Part shown: piece after piece, positions 404 through 52,538 of the stretch
Position numbering within the stretch: the stretch's first letter is position 1
Layout: every line of letters begins with the position of its first letter
Origin: Morinoia aosen
Lineage: Eukaryota > Arthropoda > Malacostraca > Amphipoda > Talitridae
Direction of reading: 5' to 3'
NCBI GenBank assembly: GCA_030386875.1
Contig: CM059559.1
Coordinates: 6,197,177-6,261,176 of the forward strand
Length of the DNA stretch: 64,000 nt
Program-made: the position numbers and the translations under genes
Notes under the pieces: model-generated
Database searches by the model: none
What the model saw: only the letters and a program-made list of their open reading frames with translations
What the model was told of the DNA's origin: nothing

Positions 404-508
404 TTGAGGTTGTTGGGCAACATCTCTGTCTCGGGATCCATTATCTTCTTTTTCCTCTTCTTTGCCTCGTGTGCGGCCAGCGCTGCAGCAATAGCCAAAG
501 GGTCGCCC
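404..508 (-). CDS. Exon (third visible) of a putative nuclear regulatory protein
   Basis: A 105-bp internal exon. The acceptor is a T-rich tract ending in TTGTTTCAG at 509 and the donor is CAA|GTGAGAG at 404/403. Reading in phase 2 from the upstream exon, it gives 34 full codons starting GDPLAIAAALAAHEAKK, then a basic cluster (KKRKKKIM) and DPETEMLPNNL. The Ala-rich stretch looks helical and the Lys/Arg run could be a nuclear localisation signal. The first base completes a Gly codon with the GG that ends exon 4589-3930, and the exon ends two bases into a codon. It therefore has the same phase as the other two exons and could be skipped without a frameshift. In the next frame the open sequence runs past both splice sites, but that reading ignores them. 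The family is not recognised. Confidence 0.72.
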
Positions 509-1325: not shown

Positions 1326-1670
1326 AATAAGCAAACTATGACAACACAGACAGCGTTAGCCATGCTCGGCAACATAGAGAATAAATTGTGCAGGCGAGAA
1401 ACAGTTCAAGAACATCAGGACGAAAGGAAGCCTGAAATGAATGAAGCGATGTATAAAAATGAGAATTAATGTCGACCAGTAAAGGGAGTAAATAAATGTG
1501 GGTATGAAGTCATTTTTGGTAAGGAACTAGACGCAAGGGTTAAATTCAGGGAAGTTTTAGAGAGTGTGAGTCGTAATGGAAGTAAAAGAAGAGTTTCTTT
1601 CATAATCTGTAGTCGGTTATTTTTCGCAGGTTTCTACAGAGAAGCACACACGCAGAACATCCAATGATCC

Positions 1671-1938
1671 TCACGCTGGAGGAAACAAGGTAGGGTCATT
1701 TCTATGGGAGAAAATGCACCTCTTGTTCGGCTAGCCAATAGGAAGGCTTTATTTCAAACAAACTCTATGACGTCACCAAAACGCCATGTCGTTAGGCCAA
1801 TAGTGGAGCCAGATTTGGGGGTAGCAGTGCTAACAGGTGCAATATGAGAGCTGCCATTGTTTCGTTGCCGTGACGTCAGCAAAACCACACCGTCAATGAA
1901 AAAAAGACTTTGAACCTACCTTGTTTCCTCTACCGTGA
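1671..1938 (+). mobile_element. MITE-like element, copy 1
   Basis: A non-coding element of about 268 bp with terminal inverted repeats. The left end reads ggaggaaacaaggtaggg and the right end ctaccttgtttcctctacc. A second copy in opposite orientation lies at 2019-2292. TGACGTCA occurs at 1768-1775 and 1871-1878. I cannot define a clear target-site duplication, so the superfamily is open. Confidence 0.7.
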
Positions 1939-2018
1939 TCATCCTGACGTGAGAATTAGCTTATTCGATGCAAAATTTGCTTTGGAAAGTCCGGTTTATC
2001 TATTTATTTATATGTATA

Positions 2019-2292
2019 CCACGGAAGAGGAAACAAGGTATGTTCAAACCAGTCTTTTTTTTGTCGATTGTGTGGGTATGCTGACGTCACGGCAACGAAC
2101 CAATAGCAGCGCTCATATTGCATTTGGTAGCACTGCTACCCCCAAATCTGGCTCCACTATTGGCCTAACGGCAAGGCGTTTTGGTGACGTCATAAAGTTT
2201 GTTTGAAATTAAGCCTTTCTATTTTCTAGCCGAACAAGAGGAGGTGTATTTCCGCCCACAGAAATGACCCTACCTTGTTTCCTCTACCGTGA
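2019..2292 (-). mobile_element. MITE-like element, copy 2 (inverted)
   Basis: The reverse complement aligns with 1671-1938 over its whole length with scattered substitutions and small indels. It has the same ends (agaggaaacaaggta and taccttgtttcctctacc). TGACGTCA occurs at 2082-2089 and 2185-2192. About 80 bp separates the copies, so the pair could fold into a hairpin with arms of about 270 bp. Confidence 0.7.
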
Positions 2293-3355: not shown

Positions 3356-3501
3356 AATGGGAATGTGGAGGAAATGAAAAAAACATAGATGAAACTACAA
3401 ATAAAATAAACAAAACTGCAACGAAAATGAACGGGCACCAAGAAAAAAGGTGAAACCTGGACCACAACCGTATAAAACAGAAACAGCAGCAAGAGACGGC
3501 T

Positions 3502-3935
3502 GCCACTCACCCGTTCTGCACTCACCCGTTCTGCACTCACCCGTTCTGCCACTCAACCGTTCTGCCACTCAACCGTTCTGCCACTCAACCGTTCTGCCAC
3601 TCAACCGTTCTGCCACTCACCCGTTCTGCCACTCACCCGTTCTGCACTCACCCGTTCTGCCACTCACCCGTTCTCTCACTCACCCGTTCTGCACTCACCC
3701 GTTCTGCACTCACCCGTTCTGCCACTCACCCGTTCTGCCACTCACCCGTCCTGCCACTTACCCGTCCTGTCACTCACCCGTTCTCCCACTCACCCGTTCT
3801 CCCACTCACCCGTTCTGCCACTCACACCCGTTCTGCCACTCACACCCGTTCTACCACTCACCCGTTCTCCCACTCACCCGTTCTGCCACTCACAGCCGTT
3901 CTGCCACTCACACCCGTCCTGCCACTCACCCGTTC
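3502..3935 (-). repeat. 16-bp minisatellite built from a 5' splice site
   Basis: About 27 tandem copies of actcacccgttctgcc. On the minus (gene) strand this reads ggcagaacgggtgagt. The real exon-intron border at 3930/3929 reads GAGAACGG|GTGAGTGG and is the edge unit of the array. Most units therefore hold a near-consensus 5' splice site (CGG|GTGAGT). A few, with actcaaccg, have lost the GT. Units with cactcacacccg carry a 2-bp insertion. Confidence 0.93.
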
Positions 3936-4589
3936 TCCATGAGCTTGATGTGCTTTGGCTTGCGTCCTCTTCTCTTCGGTTGCTGTGTCCCCAACACCTC
4001 ATCCACCGGCCGGGGGGAGGGGCCCGTATACTCGTCCACGAAGCTGTACGGGTCCCCTTCCCTCCCCCCGGGGCCGTGGGGCCCCATGCCCTGGGGCCCC
4101 ATATGGCATCCCTGCCCCGCGTACGGCGGCTGGGGCATGGGCATCTGACCGTACTGCTGTGGGTCTCCTGGGTACTGGTACGGCTGCTGCTGGTGGGGAG
4201 GTGGGGGGTTTCTGGCGGACGTTTGGTACCCCGGGGACATGGGGGACATGTTACCCCCCATGCCGGGGTAGTTGGGGTAGTGGGGTTGTTGGGACCCCTG
4301 CATCGACTGGTCGTTCCCACCCGTTGGTTGCTGCGGGGAGTACCCGTGGCATGCGGACCCGTGTTGGGATGTCATGTGGGATTGCTGGCCGGGGTTGAGC
4401 GGGGATGCGTCATGACCCCCCGAGTCAGCACCCCCCATGGGGTGGTGCGGGGGCATCTGGGAGTTACCCTGGTATCCCTGGTAATGATCTGGGTCCGACT
4501 TGTGGGATGAGCTTCTGTCCGACATCAGCGTCTCGGCGTCGCCGCTGCTGTTGAACCAGTCTTTGCCGCCGGCGCCTTTCAATTTGTTG
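3930..4589 (-). CDS. Exon (second visible) of a putative nuclear regulatory protein, with an AT-hook-like motif
   Basis: A 660-bp internal exon. The acceptor is TTTCCGTTGCAG ending at 4590 and the donor is CGG|GTGAGT at 3930/3929. Its first base C joins the AG that ends exon 9252-8017 to make Ser, then NKLKGAGGKDWFNSSGDAE follows. The middle is rich in Met, Gly, Pro, Gln and His (for example PPPPHQQQPYQYPGD and GPQGMGPHGPGG) and is probably disordered. Near the end come DPYSFVDEYTGPSPRPVDEV and the basic motif PKRRGRKPKHIKL. That motif resembles an AT-hook (RGR core) but lacks the canonical RGRP order. The ordered DPYSF segment and the basic motif look like conserved islands. I infer a DNA- or chromatin-associated protein. 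Long N-terminal regions of chromatin remodellers or transcriptional co-regulators look like this, but I do not recognise the family. Confidence 0.82.
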
Positions 4590-4662
4590 CTGCAACGGAA
4601 ATGTGAAGTGAGCGACTGGAGCAGGGTTGAATTCAAGTGCCTTGAGTGATGTTAGCAACTTA

Positions 4663-5073
4663 TTGAATAAGAGGAACGAATTCCTGCATTGAACAAGGGT
4701 AACGAATTCCTGCATTGAACAAGGGTAACGAATTCCTGCATTGAACAAGGGTAACGAATTCCTGCATTGAACAAGGGGAACGAATTCCTGCATTGAACAA
4801 GGGTAACGAATTCCTGCATTGAACAAGGGTAACGAATTCCTGCATTGAACAAGGGTAACGAATTCCTGCATTGAACAAGGGTAACGAATTCCTGCATTGA
4901 ACAAGGGGAACGAATTCCTGCATTGAACAAGGGGAACGAATTCCTGCATTGAACAAGGGGAACGAATTCCTGCATTGAACAAGGGTAACGAATTCCTGCA
5001 TTGAACAAGGGTAACGAATTCCTGCATTGAACAAGGGTAACGAATTCCTGCATTGAACAAGGGTAACGAATTC
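4663..5073. repeat. 26-bp minisatellite with an EcoRI site in each unit, about 15 copies
   Basis: Very uniform units containing aacgaattcctgcattgaac, with one main variable position (gggtaacg versus ggggaacg). On the gene strand each unit has a pyrimidine-leaning stretch ending in AATGCAG|G, which resembles a 3' splice site. The array ends about 75 bp upstream of the real acceptor of exon 4589-3930. Confidence 0.95.
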
Positions 5074-5255
5074 CTAGACCTGAACGTTGCTCATTTTATA
5101 ACAGATACAGTTGGGTGCCATCCCAATCTGTCCTCGACTACAGTTGGAGGATAGAAGTGTTTAGCTAGAAAATGTGTTTGATAAGGCCACACAACCATGG
5201 TCCCAAAGTCAACTTCGATGGGATGAGCTGGGCAGTCGATTAACATAAGAAACAA

Positions 5256-5371
5256 CCCAGTCTAACTTTTCGCCGCCTGCATGCATGTTTTTCGCCGCCT
5301 AAGCGAGTTGATCGCTTAAATCGCTAAGGCGGCGAAGAACATGCATGCAGGCGGCGAAGAAGTTAGACGGG
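5256..5371. mobile_element. Foldback MITE, copy 1
   Basis: A near-palindromic element of about 116 bp. The ends are cccagtctaacttttcgccg and ggcgaagaagttagacggg. Inner arms are gcctgcatgcatg and catgcatgcaggc around an AT-rich centre. A second copy lies at 53649-53755. Confidence 0.78.
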
Positions 5372-7385: not shown

Positions 7386-7929
7386 TATTCTTATTTACAC
7401 TTAACCTTAGTGAGATGGTGGTGTTTTTCAATTTTTCTTTTCGTTCATTTGAAAAGGAGTTGAGCGTTGACAAAGAGTTTAATAAGAGTTGAGCGTTGAA
7501 TTTCAGTTGAACCCGCGGCAGTTGAAATATTAAAACATTGACGTGCCGACGTCTATGCGGCGTTGCCAAATAAAATGAGATGGAGCAAAACTGGCTGGCT
7601 GTTATTAACAAGTTTCTCTATGTTTATGGGGGCTTTGAACGCATGGTAACACCATCCAAATAAAAAATAAAATACTCAGCGTTTTTTAAACTAAGAATAA
7701 GAATGACATCCTTGCAAACCAATAAACTATTTTACACGCTCACAGCTTTAAAATGAGAACCACGAAGATCTTATTTAGGAACACCAAACCCAAAACCCCA
7801 AAAGTTGGCAACAACCCGCAGAGCAATGAATGGGAAGGCACAAAGAGGTCGGTGCAACATGGGATGACACACTTTGCATCGGGCGAGGATTCTTGCACTG
7901 CTCTACCAAAGGAAAGGGATGATCACACC

Positions 7930-8018
7930 ACGATGAATACTGGATGGAGTGGTCAGTGAGGTAGGTACCTACGACGATGAATACTGGATGGAGTGGTCAG
8001 TGAGGTAGGTAGGTACCT
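7930..8018 (-). repeat. Two-copy 44-bp tandem duplication of a splice-donor region
   Basis: Copy one is at about 7930-7970 and copy two at 7974-8018, with a 4-bp gtag insertion in copy two. On the gene strand the real donor reads AAG|GTACCTACC at 8017/8016. The duplicate inside the intron reads TAG|GTACCTACC. The donor region has therefore been copied once. Confidence 0.85.
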
Positions 8019-9252
8019 TATAGAGTCCATGTGCATACTCCAGTATCCATCGTGACCACCTTGGTGCTGCCCTTTGATCGCTTGCTGCTGGTGGTACTGC
8101 TCCTGCTGGGGATCATGGAGACCATGGTGAGGGGAGTCCTTCATCTGTAGGGTTTCATTGTAGGGGCGGTGGGGAGACGGGGATTGCTGCATCCCGTGGG
8201 GGGGAGGCCGGTGATGCCCGGGGTTGAAGTCGAGTGGGTATCGCCCATCTTGAGCACCCGCAGGTTCTTTCCGCAACGGGGAGCTGTGGTTGTGAGGGGA
8301 GTCGATGGGTCGACCACCGGGGTAGTTCAGAGGGTTGATCGGGAGGTGGGGAGAGTTCTGGTGGTGGTGGTAGTGGGGGGAGTCGTGGTGTAGGTGGGGG
8401 GACCCATGGGGATGCAGGTGTTGGGATGATTCGTTCGATAACGGGGAATCTCGATGCATGAATGGAGAGTTTCTATGTTTCTGCAGCAAAGATGACGAGG
8501 ACGATAAGCTTTGCTCGGAAGGGTTATTGGCTGTCGAGGGTGAATGCTGCATAGTAGGGTTTTGCTGGAGGTACTGTTGGCTCATGGGGTTGGCAGGGTT
8601 AGGGGAACTTTGGTGGTAGTGTCGTAAATCTGAAGGTGGATGTGAGTCGTAATGAGAATACGGTTGACTATCTTGAGCTGAGTACGACGCACTCATGGAT
8701 GAAGGTATCGAACTATGCAAAGGGATACGACCTTTCTCGCTGACGTTAGAAGAACCTTGATAGAAATCTTCTCTGGATGACGGAAGCTCATGCTTACGAA
8801 AACCAGGATTGTACGAGTCTGTTCTGGGGACTCTCTCGTTCGTTACCGGGATTTGCGGACACGACGAAGAATCAGACGCGGGTTGCTCGTTTGTCGATTT
8901 AGAAGCGTTTTCGGTGGGAGGGAAGGCCGGCGAGATGGTTGACGGGGTCGGAGGGGGTACCTGTCTAGTGAAGGATTCTGACGAACAGGAAGGATGGCCC
9001 ATCGTAGGCCTATCGGCCGAGGAAGGGGACACAGACTCCCTCAGCTCAGACTGGGCTGGACTTTGGGCTGACAAGCGAGGGGAAGGACAAGTCTCCAAGG
9101 AAGGGCAAGTCGAGGATGAAGGGAAGGTGCTCGAAGCGGCAGGAAGTTCGGCCGAGTGCAGAGGCGACAAGTTGTTCGGCTTCGACGATGTGATAGGCGA
9201 CGATGGACGAGACAATTTCTCATTGGTTTCTTCTCCGTGATCAACAACTTTT
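8017..9252 (-). CDS. Exon (first visible) of a putative nuclear regulatory protein, Ser/Pro/His-rich
   Basis: A 1236-bp exon. The best acceptor is TTTACTTTACATTCTCAG ending at 9253 and the donor is AAG|GTACCT at 8017/8016. It encodes about 411 full codons beginning KVVDHGEETNEKLSRPSSP. The first half is Ser/Pro-rich. The second half is rich in His, Ser, Pro, Asn and Gln (for example SPHLHHDSPHYHHHQNSPH and EQYHQQQ) and ends GGHDGYWSMHMDSI. No folded domain, membrane segment or signal peptide is visible. The frame stays open upstream to 9476 on the minus strand, and a second possible acceptor (TTATTCCAG near 9421) could extend the exon. The extension lacks the Ser/Pro bias, so I prefer 9252. 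Phase 2 at both ends fits exon 4589-3930, giving ...MDSI-S-NKLKG across the junction. Confidence 0.78.
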
Positions 9253-30660: not shown

Positions 30661-30938
30661 CACAACTCACGCGCAGGGCAGACGAGCAGCGGTGACGTCA
30701 CGGCCCTATGCAACATCTGCACAAAAAAAATTATTTTGTTTAAAAAAATAATCTATTTTTACAACATTGTTTTTGAATTGCACTACCGAACGGTAATATC
30801 ATTTACCAGCTTAAAGCAATAATTATTAATTTTTTATATCTTCATTATACTTTGATGTGTTGTTTAGTGGTTAATTTTTTTTATTTATGTGGTTAGTTAA
30901 TGATGAAACTCTGCTGTTGTTTTTGTTGTTTAGGTGTA
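30661..30938. other. Spacer, nothing recognised
   Basis: AT-rich. It contains one gtgacgtcac word near 30693. Confidence 0.5.
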
Positions 30939-31379
30939 ACAACATAGGGCAAAATTCAACACCCTGCTTTCAGTAATAACATAGGGCAAGATTCAACACC
31001 CTGCTTTCAGTAATAACATAGGGCAAAATTCAACACCCTGCTTTCAGTAATAACATAGGGCAAAATTCAACACCCTGCTTTCAGTAATAACATAGGGCAA
31101 GATTCAACACCCTGCTTTCAGTAATAACATAGGGCAAAATTCCACACCCTGCTTTCAGTAATAACATAGGGCAAAATTCAACACCCTGCTTTCAGTAATA
31201 ACATAGGGCAAAATTCAACACCCTGCTTTCAGTAATAACATAGGACAAAATTCAACACCCTGCTTTCAGTAATAACATGGGGCAAAATTCAACACCCTGC
31301 TTTCAGTAATAACATAGGGCAAAATTCAACACCCTACTTTCAGTAATAACATAGGGCAAAATTCAACACCCTGCTTTCA
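30939..31379. repeat. 37-bp minisatellite, about 12 copies (array 2 of the family)
   Basis: Same unit as at 22270 and 50618 (cagtaataacatagggcaaa, then attcaacaccctgcttt). The conserved hairpin tail is absent here. A CA-rich stretch follows instead. Confidence 0.96.
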
Positions 31380-50617: not shown

Positions 50618-52455
50618 TTTCAGTAATAACATAGGGCAAAATTCAACACCCTGCTTCCAGTAATAACATAGGGCAAAATTCAACACCCTGCTTTCAGTAA
50701 TAACATAGGACAAAATTCAACACCCTGCTTTCAGTAATAACATAGGGCAAAATTCAACACCCTGCTTTCAGTAATAACATAGGGCAAAATTCAACACCCT
50801 GCTTTCAGTAATAACATAGGGCAAAATTCAACACCCTGCTTTCAGTAATAACATAGGGCAAAATTCAACACCCTGCTTTCAGTAATAACATAGGGCAAGA
50901 TTCAACACCCTGCTTTCAGTAATAACATAGGGCAAAATTCAACACCCTGCTTTCAGTAATAACATAGGGCAAAATTCAACACCCTGCTTTCAGTAATAAC
51001 ATAGGACAAAATTCAACACCCTGCTTTCAGTAATAACATAGGGCAAAATTCAACACCCTGCTTTCAGTAATAACATAGGGCAAAATTCAACACCCTGCTT
51101 TCAGTAATACCATAGGGCAAAATTCAACACCCTGCTTTCAGTAATAACATAGGGCAAAATTCAACATCCTGCTTTCAGTAATAACATAGGACAAAATCAA
51201 CACCCTGCTTTCAGTAATAACATAGGACAAAATTCAACACCCTGCTTTCAGTAATAACATAGGACAAAATCAACACCCTGCTTTCAGTAATAACATAGGG
51301 CAAAATTCAACACCCTGCTTTCAGTAATAACATAGGGCAAAATTCAACACCCAGCTTTCAGTAATAACATAGGGCAAAATTCAACACCCAGCTTTCAGTA
51401 ATAACATAGGACAAAATTCAACACCCTGCTTTCAGTAATAACATAGGGCAAAATTCAACACCCTGCTTTCAGTAATGACATAGGGCAAAATTCAACACCC
51501 TGCTTTCAGTAATAACATAGGGCAAGATTCAACACCCTGCTTTCAGTAATAACATAGGGCAAAATTCAACACCCTGCTTTCAGTAATAACATAGGGCAAG
51601 ATTCAACACCCTGCTTTCAGTAATAACATAGGGCAAAATTCAACACCCTGCTTTCAGTAATAACATAGGGCAAAATTCAACACCCTGCTTTCAGTAATAA
51701 CATAGGGCAAAATTCAACACCCTGCTTTCAGTAATAACATAGGGCAAAATTCAACACCCTGCTTTCAGTAATAACATAGCGCAAAATTCAACACCCTGCT
51801 TTCAGTAATAACATAGGGCAAAATTCAACACCCTGCTTTCAGTAATAACATAGGGCAAGATTCAACACCCTGCTTTCAGTAATAACATAGGGCAAGATTC
51901 AACACCCTGCTTTCAGTAATAACATAGGGCAAAATTCAACACCCTGCTTTCAGTAATAACATAGGGCAAAATTCAACACCCTGCTTTCAGTAATAACATA
52001 GGGCAAAATTCAACACCCTGCTTTCAGTAATAACATAGGGCAAAATTCAACACCCTGCTTTCAGTAATAACATAGGGCAAAATTCAACACCCTGCTTTCA
52101 GTAATAACATAGGGCAAAATTCAACACCCTGCTTTCAGTAATAACATAGGGCAAAATTCAACACCCTGCTTTCAGTAATAACATAGGGCAAAATTCAACA
52201 CCCTGCTTTCAGTAATAACATAGGGCAAAATTCAACACCCTGCTTTCAGTAATAACATAGGGCAAAATTCAACATCCTGCTTTCAGTAATAACATAGGGC
52301 AAAATTCAACACCCTGCTTTCAGTAATAACATAGGGCAAAATTCAACACCCTGCTTTCAGTAATAACATAGGGCAAAATTCAACACCCTGCTTTCAGTAA
52401 TAACATAGGGCAAAATTCAACACCCTGCTTTCAGTAATAACATAGGGCAAAATTC
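50618..52455. repeat. 37-bp minisatellite, about 50 copies (array 3 of the family)
   Basis: Unit as at 30939 (cagtaataacatagggcaaa, then attcaacaccctgcttt). Sparse variants (aggacaaaa, gcaagattc, cccagc) recur in runs. Confidence 0.97.
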
Positions 52456-52538
52456 ACATATCACACACGCCGTATCGTGGATACGGTCTGTCACAAATAC
52501 TTATTTTGCAGAGAATATCTCCCTGAAATTTGTTGCAT
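52456..52538. mobile_element. Conserved tail of the 37-bp element
   Basis: Contains CCGTATC-GTG-GATACGG at 52470-52486 and gagaatatctccctgaa. It matches 22290-22377 closely. Confidence 0.75.

Follow-up and report, generated by a model that had tools for sequence, protein, structure and literature searches.

A minisatellite at the 5′ splice site of a thymine DNA glycosylase-like gene in the amphipod Morinoia aosen and comparable repeats at other exon borders

Tandem repeats that span exon–intron boundaries have been described in lancelets under the name mirages, where they occur in Adh3, globins, troponin C and PGBD5 (PMC3087553, PMC3902484). Mirage units in Adh3 are reported to measure 10 to 72 bp, two haplotypes of BflGb6 carry six and three units, and RT-PCR of lancelet globins together with earlier Adh3 data suggests that regular splicing is undisturbed; the authors suggest that new introns can arise from mirages (PMC3087553, PMC3902484). 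Rogers is cited in PMC3087553 for the idea that introns are gained when an AG/GT proto-splice site is duplicated in tandem. In human IFI6, a minisatellite is reported to supply alternative donors, with two downstream repeat units serving as donors (PMC4526556). The available excerpts on earthworm intronic minisatellites describe no exon-border repeats (PMC12783039). In the open-licence literature, no report of a genome-wide rate of such border repeats was found.

The array described here lies in a window of 64,000 nucleotides (contig CM059559.1, here C4, positions 6,197,177 to 6,261,176), in a gene that was taken to be thymine DNA glycosylase (TDG) from the translation of neighbouring minus-strand stretches. 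It resembles the lancelet mirages in that its units are composed of exon bases, the border and intron bases, that many units keep splice signals and that multiple genes are affected within one genome. Unlike the mirages, which are found at 5′ and 3′ borders, the repeats were found here at donors only (6 of 48, versus 0 of 18 acceptors), and the 27 units in TDG and about 65 in an inositol-trisphosphate 3-kinase (IP3K) gene stand against the six and three of the BflGb6 haplotypes. The likeness to IFI6 is that a donor-bearing minisatellite begins at the exon end with units that match the donor, which is also the case in the TDG array; the inner donors of IFI6, however, are said to yield isoforms, whereas the inner GTRAGT sites of TDG give an immediate stop in a frame test (22 of 22). 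As in intron gain of the Rogers type, a splice-signal sequence is duplicated, but it is the donor of an existing intron that is multiplied and no new intron was seen. The kind of repeat is already known from the mirages, and its apparent frequency in this genome is worth a proper survey. The features of the gene are as follows, with a slash marking exon–intron borders.

8017..9252, minus strand: preceding exon, 1236 nt, donor AAG/GTACCT, acceptor placed by eye
7927..8014, minus strand: 44-bp tandem duplication, two copies, just inside the intron after exon 8017–9252
4662..5075, minus strand: 26-bp x 16 array (TRF) in the upstream intron of exon 3930–4589, which stops about 70 bp before the acceptor and does not include the exon border
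3930..4589, minus strand: coding exon of the TDG-like gene, 660 nt, acceptor ttgcag/CAACAA, end AAGCTCATGGAGAACGG (K L M E N G), from the open frame 3926–4651 and in-frame splicing with the flanking exons
3924..3936, minus strand: true 5′ splice site AGAACGG/GTGAGT, the edge unit of the array
3926..3928, minus strand: TGA stop in the open frame, reached immediately when the first donor is unused
3500..3936, minus strand: minisatellite of 27 units, gene-strand consensus AGAACGGGTGAGTGGC, from TRF and unit parsing
404..508, minus strand: next exon, 105 nt, symmetric, begins GDPLAIAAALAAHEAKKRKKK, from the in-frame join

Judged from the reading frame, position 3930 is an exon end, because the spliced frame stays open across four exons and heads to the TDG catalytic domain. 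Exons 8017–9252, 3930–4589 and 404–508 and the next exon to the left of the window form a single open frame of 734 codons, which is consistent with a normal mRNA still being made. When joined, the downstream exons are similar to solved TDG structures (best E 1.3e-49) and also hit the Pfam UDG family (E 4e-7). Exon 3930–4589 alone gave no match at E thresholds of 1 in Pfam and 10 in the PDB, a Pfam search with the preceding open frame gave no match, and a DNA search of the genome (1.99 Gb, 29 contigs) placed the exon at a single location, itself. An Rfam search of the window and a tRNA scan were without result. The frame also stays open when the 105-nt exon 404–508 is omitted, and this symmetric exon could be skippable or an exon duplicate. 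Two consecutive TDG exons start alike, with GDPLAIAAALAAHEAKKRKKK at window 404–508 and NDPLLVAAAQAAHEAKKRKMK at about −951 to −1152, left of the window. In the 44-bp duplication, AG/GTACCTACC recurs in the second copy at a distance of 48 nt, without a stop and in frame; the duplication was left out of the exon-tail copies because it shares just two exon bases. An inverted repeat (TTCGCCGCCTGCATGCATG...) that appears by eye to be capable of forming a hairpin is located at window 5261–5370, in the intron upstream of exon 3930–4589.

A minisatellite of 16-bp units at the exon's own 5′ splice site, spanning 3502–3935, had been proposed in a preliminary description of this DNA. The array itself is confirmed by TRF on the window (3500–3936, period 16, 27.1 copies, 91% matches) and by unit parsing, which yields 27 units counting the exon-edge one, while the limits were off by one to two bases. 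The length of 16 bp applies to most units but not as a constant step, as five units measure 15 bp, 18 measure 16 bp and four measure 18 bp when cut at AGAACGG or AGGACGG, with the last 16-bp unit clipped at 16 by the script. Over the border, the gene (minus) strand reads AAGCTCATGGAGAACGG/GTGAGTGGCAGGACGGGTGTGAGTGGCAGAACGG, and the exon-edge unit AGAACGG/GTGAGTGGC is identical to the consensus of the array, AGAACGGGTGAGTGGC, which bears out that the donor at 3930/3929 is the edge unit of the array. All this places both exon and intron bases within the units. The array contains GGGTGAGT 18 times (the true donor counted), GGTGTGAGT three times, GGGTAAGT and GCTGTGAGT once each, and GGTTGAGT four times in four neighbouring units. 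The border alignment at the TDG donor, which takes in nine exon and 14 intron bases, scores 21, where 300 dinucleotide shuffles reach 17.5 at most, so the register of the array with the exon end is beyond chance. A direct repeat of about 173 bp inside the array points to block duplication besides unit slippage.

The duplex energy with U1 is −12.6 kcal/mol for the true donor, compared with −14 kcal/mol for a perfect consensus and −9.6 kcal/mol for the strongest among 27 GT sites within the exon. Most units had been said to keep a strong donor, and the per-unit score agrees as far as pairing strength is concerned, since 18 inner units (−12.3 to −12.6 kcal/mol) are about equal to the true donor. 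The two units adjoining the true donor are altered (GTGTGAGT and GCTGTGAGT) and weak (−6.4 to −7.6 kcal/mol), so that the nearest rival of equal strength lies 52 nt away from it. Exon 3930–4589 ends in phase 2, and read-through therefore gives AAC GGG TGA. In the frame test, all 22 inner GTRAGT sites lead to a protein that ends at KLMENG, before the catalytic domain, with the stop 14 to 415 nt ahead of the new junction and more than 50 nt ahead of it for 19 of the sites. The expectation that inner donors would simply add multiples of 16 bp to the mRNA is contradicted by this result: such multiples would be no harmless insertions, and a functional gene would have to use the first donor often enough. 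With inserted bases left out, substitutions in the TDG array affect 5 of 162 donor-hexamer sites (3.1%) versus 10 of 267 other sites (3.7%), and those in the IP3K array 20 of 394 (5.1%) versus 29 of 868 (3.3%). The donor hexamers are not specially kept in either array, so nothing shows selection for a U1 platform, and the pattern argues against selection for it or for inner donors. In array L030, which has no recognised exon and served for comparison, substitutions affect 23 of 440 donor-hexamer sites versus 2 of 588 others, which indicates that such substitution patterns differ between arrays.

Introner elements are single sequences that form introns at many places of a genome. The TDG unit does not show such a distribution, as a genome search with it gave 10 matches at two places among the best-scored candidates, namely the TDG array and a weaker 14-bp array on the same chromosome. 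An IP3K exon (E 3.5e-28 against solved IP3K B) is located about 12 kb from the weaker match, and two arrays are found in its vicinity.

C4:17025610-17026852 (locus L035): IP3K array, about 65 units TACGTGGGGCTG/GTGAGTG, from the exon end
C4:17037993-17039020 (locus L030): donor-like array, GGCAGAGGGTAAGT x73, downstream of IP3K

The IP3K exon ends GCGTACATGGGGCTG/GTGAGTG, an ending also given as TACATGGGGCTG/GTGAGTG, and its final 12 nt are repeated about 65 times together with GTGAGTG. The exon end encodes part of VPAYMGL, a stretch aligned to VPAYHGD of solved IP3K B, which makes the exon the source and the array the copy. The origin by border duplication that had been suggested for TDG is well supported by the exon-edge match and by this second gene with its kinase-aligned exon end. 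On the acceptor side of the same IP3K exon, repeats with CTAAC and a T run look by eye like a branch point and pyrimidine tract. L030 was considered as another exon-border array and was dropped, as the recognised genes, IP3K and a nearby one presumed to be inositol-monophosphatase-like (IMP), are on the opposite strand. Having no recognised gene on its own strand, L030 indicates that donor-like units can arise without an exon.

The frequency of border copies was surveyed at 48 donors, of which 38 belong to kinase exons, five to TDG, two to IP3K and three to the inositol-monophosphatase-like gene; TDG had prompted the search, and the IP3K and IMP exons were by-catch near a TDG-unit match. The kinase sample was drawn from the 135 matches listed, with 130 of 746 candidates scored. 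It consisted of 40 exons ending short of the domain end, taken roughly in listing order with apparent near-duplicates and some others skipped without a fixed rule, and L065 and L075 were dropped from it because they had no credible donor. Donor positions were assigned by eye on the basis of the protein frame and the donor consensus; L056 has an alternative donor within the same repeat. The kinase exon of L054 has an apparent GC donor end by eye (CAG/GCAAGT). A 30-nt window across each donor was aligned to the intron that follows it, and the score was judged against those of 300 dinucleotide shuffles. A copy was counted as positive when it held at least five exon bases and reached across the border, and overlap between query and target was barred.

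Six of the 48 donors were positive (TDG 3930, IP3K, L037, L049, L053 and L056), compared with none of the 18 acceptors, none of the 46 exon-internal windows and 7 of the 46 windows within introns, with targets of unequal length (296 nt for full donor targets, 164 to 184 nt for the ten kinase acceptors, which were picked to include the four donor-positive exons and L051, and up to 200 nt for intron windows). Kinase exons alone account for four positives among 38 donors (L037, L049, L053 and L056), and IMP_b, a partial seventh donor with four exon bases, was not counted. By Fisher's test, donors differ modestly from exon-internal windows, with P 0.027, or 0.056 when the TDG exon that prompted the search is left out; P is 0.18 against acceptors, which is not significant, and 0.77 against introns. 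The unit of L037 is 38 bp long and is present in at least 8.7 copies, with inner units that read, by eye, GTGTGG or GTGCGG for GTGAGT. L049, L053 and L056 appear by eye to be older, diverged arrays with units of roughly 80–115 bp, in which the second unit of L049 keeps GTGTGT and the donor GT is lost in some inner units of L053 and L056.

Other versions of the test gave different counts, with fewer hits in stricter or earlier ones. In an exploratory run with 22-nt windows, 6 of 40 kinase loci were flagged (L037, L049, L051, L053, L054 and L056), and L051 and L054 did not pass the donor test with 300 dinucleotide shuffles. Strict ungapped windows passed 2 of 38 called donors and 0 of 38 exon-internal controls. 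The gapped test with block shuffles was positive for 5 of 48 donors, for none of the 46 exon-internal windows and for 9 of the 46 windows within introns; L037 was missed here because 1 of 200 shuffles scored above it. When an overlap of eight bases between query and target was allowed, the acceptor test weakly flagged L081 (10 vs 9), and without overlap it flagged 0 of 18. There is about an even chance that roughly one donor in 8 to 10 in this genome bears a minisatellite or a diverged tandem repeat derived from the tail of its exon, which would be near the rate in plain introns, and that neither acceptors nor exon interiors are affected.

Tandem arrays make up 61% of the window and 60% of the 264 kb around it, with more than one merged array per kb. 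Among 358 non-redundant minisatellites of period 8–60, collected from 304 kb (the 264 kb around the window and 40 kb elsewhere on the chromosome), the TDG unit pairs most strongly with U1 (−12.6 kcal/mol). Donor-like units (−11 kcal/mol or below) are not enriched in this set, with 4 of 358 versus 0.84% of shuffled units. Genome-wide, triples of the perfect donor CAGGTAAGT number 171 versus 300 for its reversed control, and triples of GGGTGAGT 8551 versus 5732, where the counts are matches and many come out of the same long array. The idea that donors are preferred seeds of minisatellites was dropped, since donor-like units are not enriched and the CAGGTAAGT triple is rarer than its control, although the GGGTGAGT triple is commoner. 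The TDG array is no special construction but one of several in a genome rich in tandem repeats.

The array most probably originated in a duplication of the border by slippage or microhomology, followed by neutral growth as a minisatellite that is tolerated since splicing takes place at the donor nearest the exon. About 16 bp spanning the TDG exon–intron border would have been duplicated, which placed a copy of the exon tail and the 5′ splice site in the intron; TGG stands at 15-nt spacing in the border TGGAGAACGGGTGAG/TGG, which would suit slippage. Further slippage and block duplication would then have led to the 27 units. Use of the first donor, which is presumed along with neutrality, would leave the mRNA unchanged. 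The array may survive because an intact exon and donor remain at the upstream edge when a 5′ splice site is duplicated in tandem, whereas a duplication across an acceptor would put a second AG ahead of the exon. As the former would be invisible with the exon-proximal donor in use and the latter would add an AG, more donor than acceptor arrays are predicted, and the survey counts allow such an excess without proving it. Under ordinary splicing, the effect of the array is probably nil and the array harmless for the TDG gene.

It is unlikely that the inner donors are instead used at some rate as a poison switch, in which the KLMENG end and transcript decay would tune the TDG level. The strength of the 18 inner units, which is about that of the true donor, and the stop shared by all 22 inner GTRAGT sites, which for 19 of them precedes the junction by more than 50 nt, speak for such a switch. 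But the donor hexamers are without special conservation, the two units beside the true donor pair poorly with U1 (−6.4 to −7.6 kcal/mol) with the nearest full-strength rival 52 nt off, and mirages are reported as not disturbing splicing in lancelets (PMC3087553, PMC3902484). A selected platform for U1 snRNP, acting for example against early polyadenylation or for exon definition, would agree with the highest U1 pairing among the 358 minisatellites and with 18 full-strength inner sites in about 420 bp. Such a role is nevertheless very improbable, as donor positions are not specially kept in TDG or IP3K, four neighbouring TDG units carry GGTTGAGT, and inner units are seen by eye without the donor GT in L053 and L056 and with GTGTGG or GTGCGG in L037.

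The dense arrays of this region would often put one near an exon, and a related 14-bp array is present elsewhere on the same chromosome, both of which would fit an array that was born elsewhere or within the intron, abuts the exon by chance and later passed its sequence to the exon end. This order of events is hardly credible, however, since the unit search gives, among the best candidates scored, the TDG locus and that weaker array, the IP3K exon end aligns with known kinases and so is not array-derived there, and intron copies are found at 6 of 48 borders versus 0 of 46 exon-internal windows.

Arrays formed by border duplication and neutral growth would, if confirmed with RNA, be ready-made tests of how the spliceosome chooses among many equal 5′ splice sites, because their sequence is near constant and distance alone varies. 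If the rate holds genome-wide, thousands of natural tests would be available in which near-identical donors compete with position as the sole difference. How numerous such arrays are would also matter for the proposed contribution of border duplications to intron gain.

Elsewhere in the window, the arrays at 30936–31379 and 50618–52456 have an identical 37-bp unit (GTAATAACATAGGGCAAAATTCAACACCCTGCTTTCA), so some minisatellites here are present in more than one location. Window 1640–2290 contains an inverted pair around TACCTTGTTTCCTCTACCGTGAT-like ends. Translated pieces that resemble it are located at window-scale 93947 and at C4:17055635, and by eye it looks like a dispersed mobile element.
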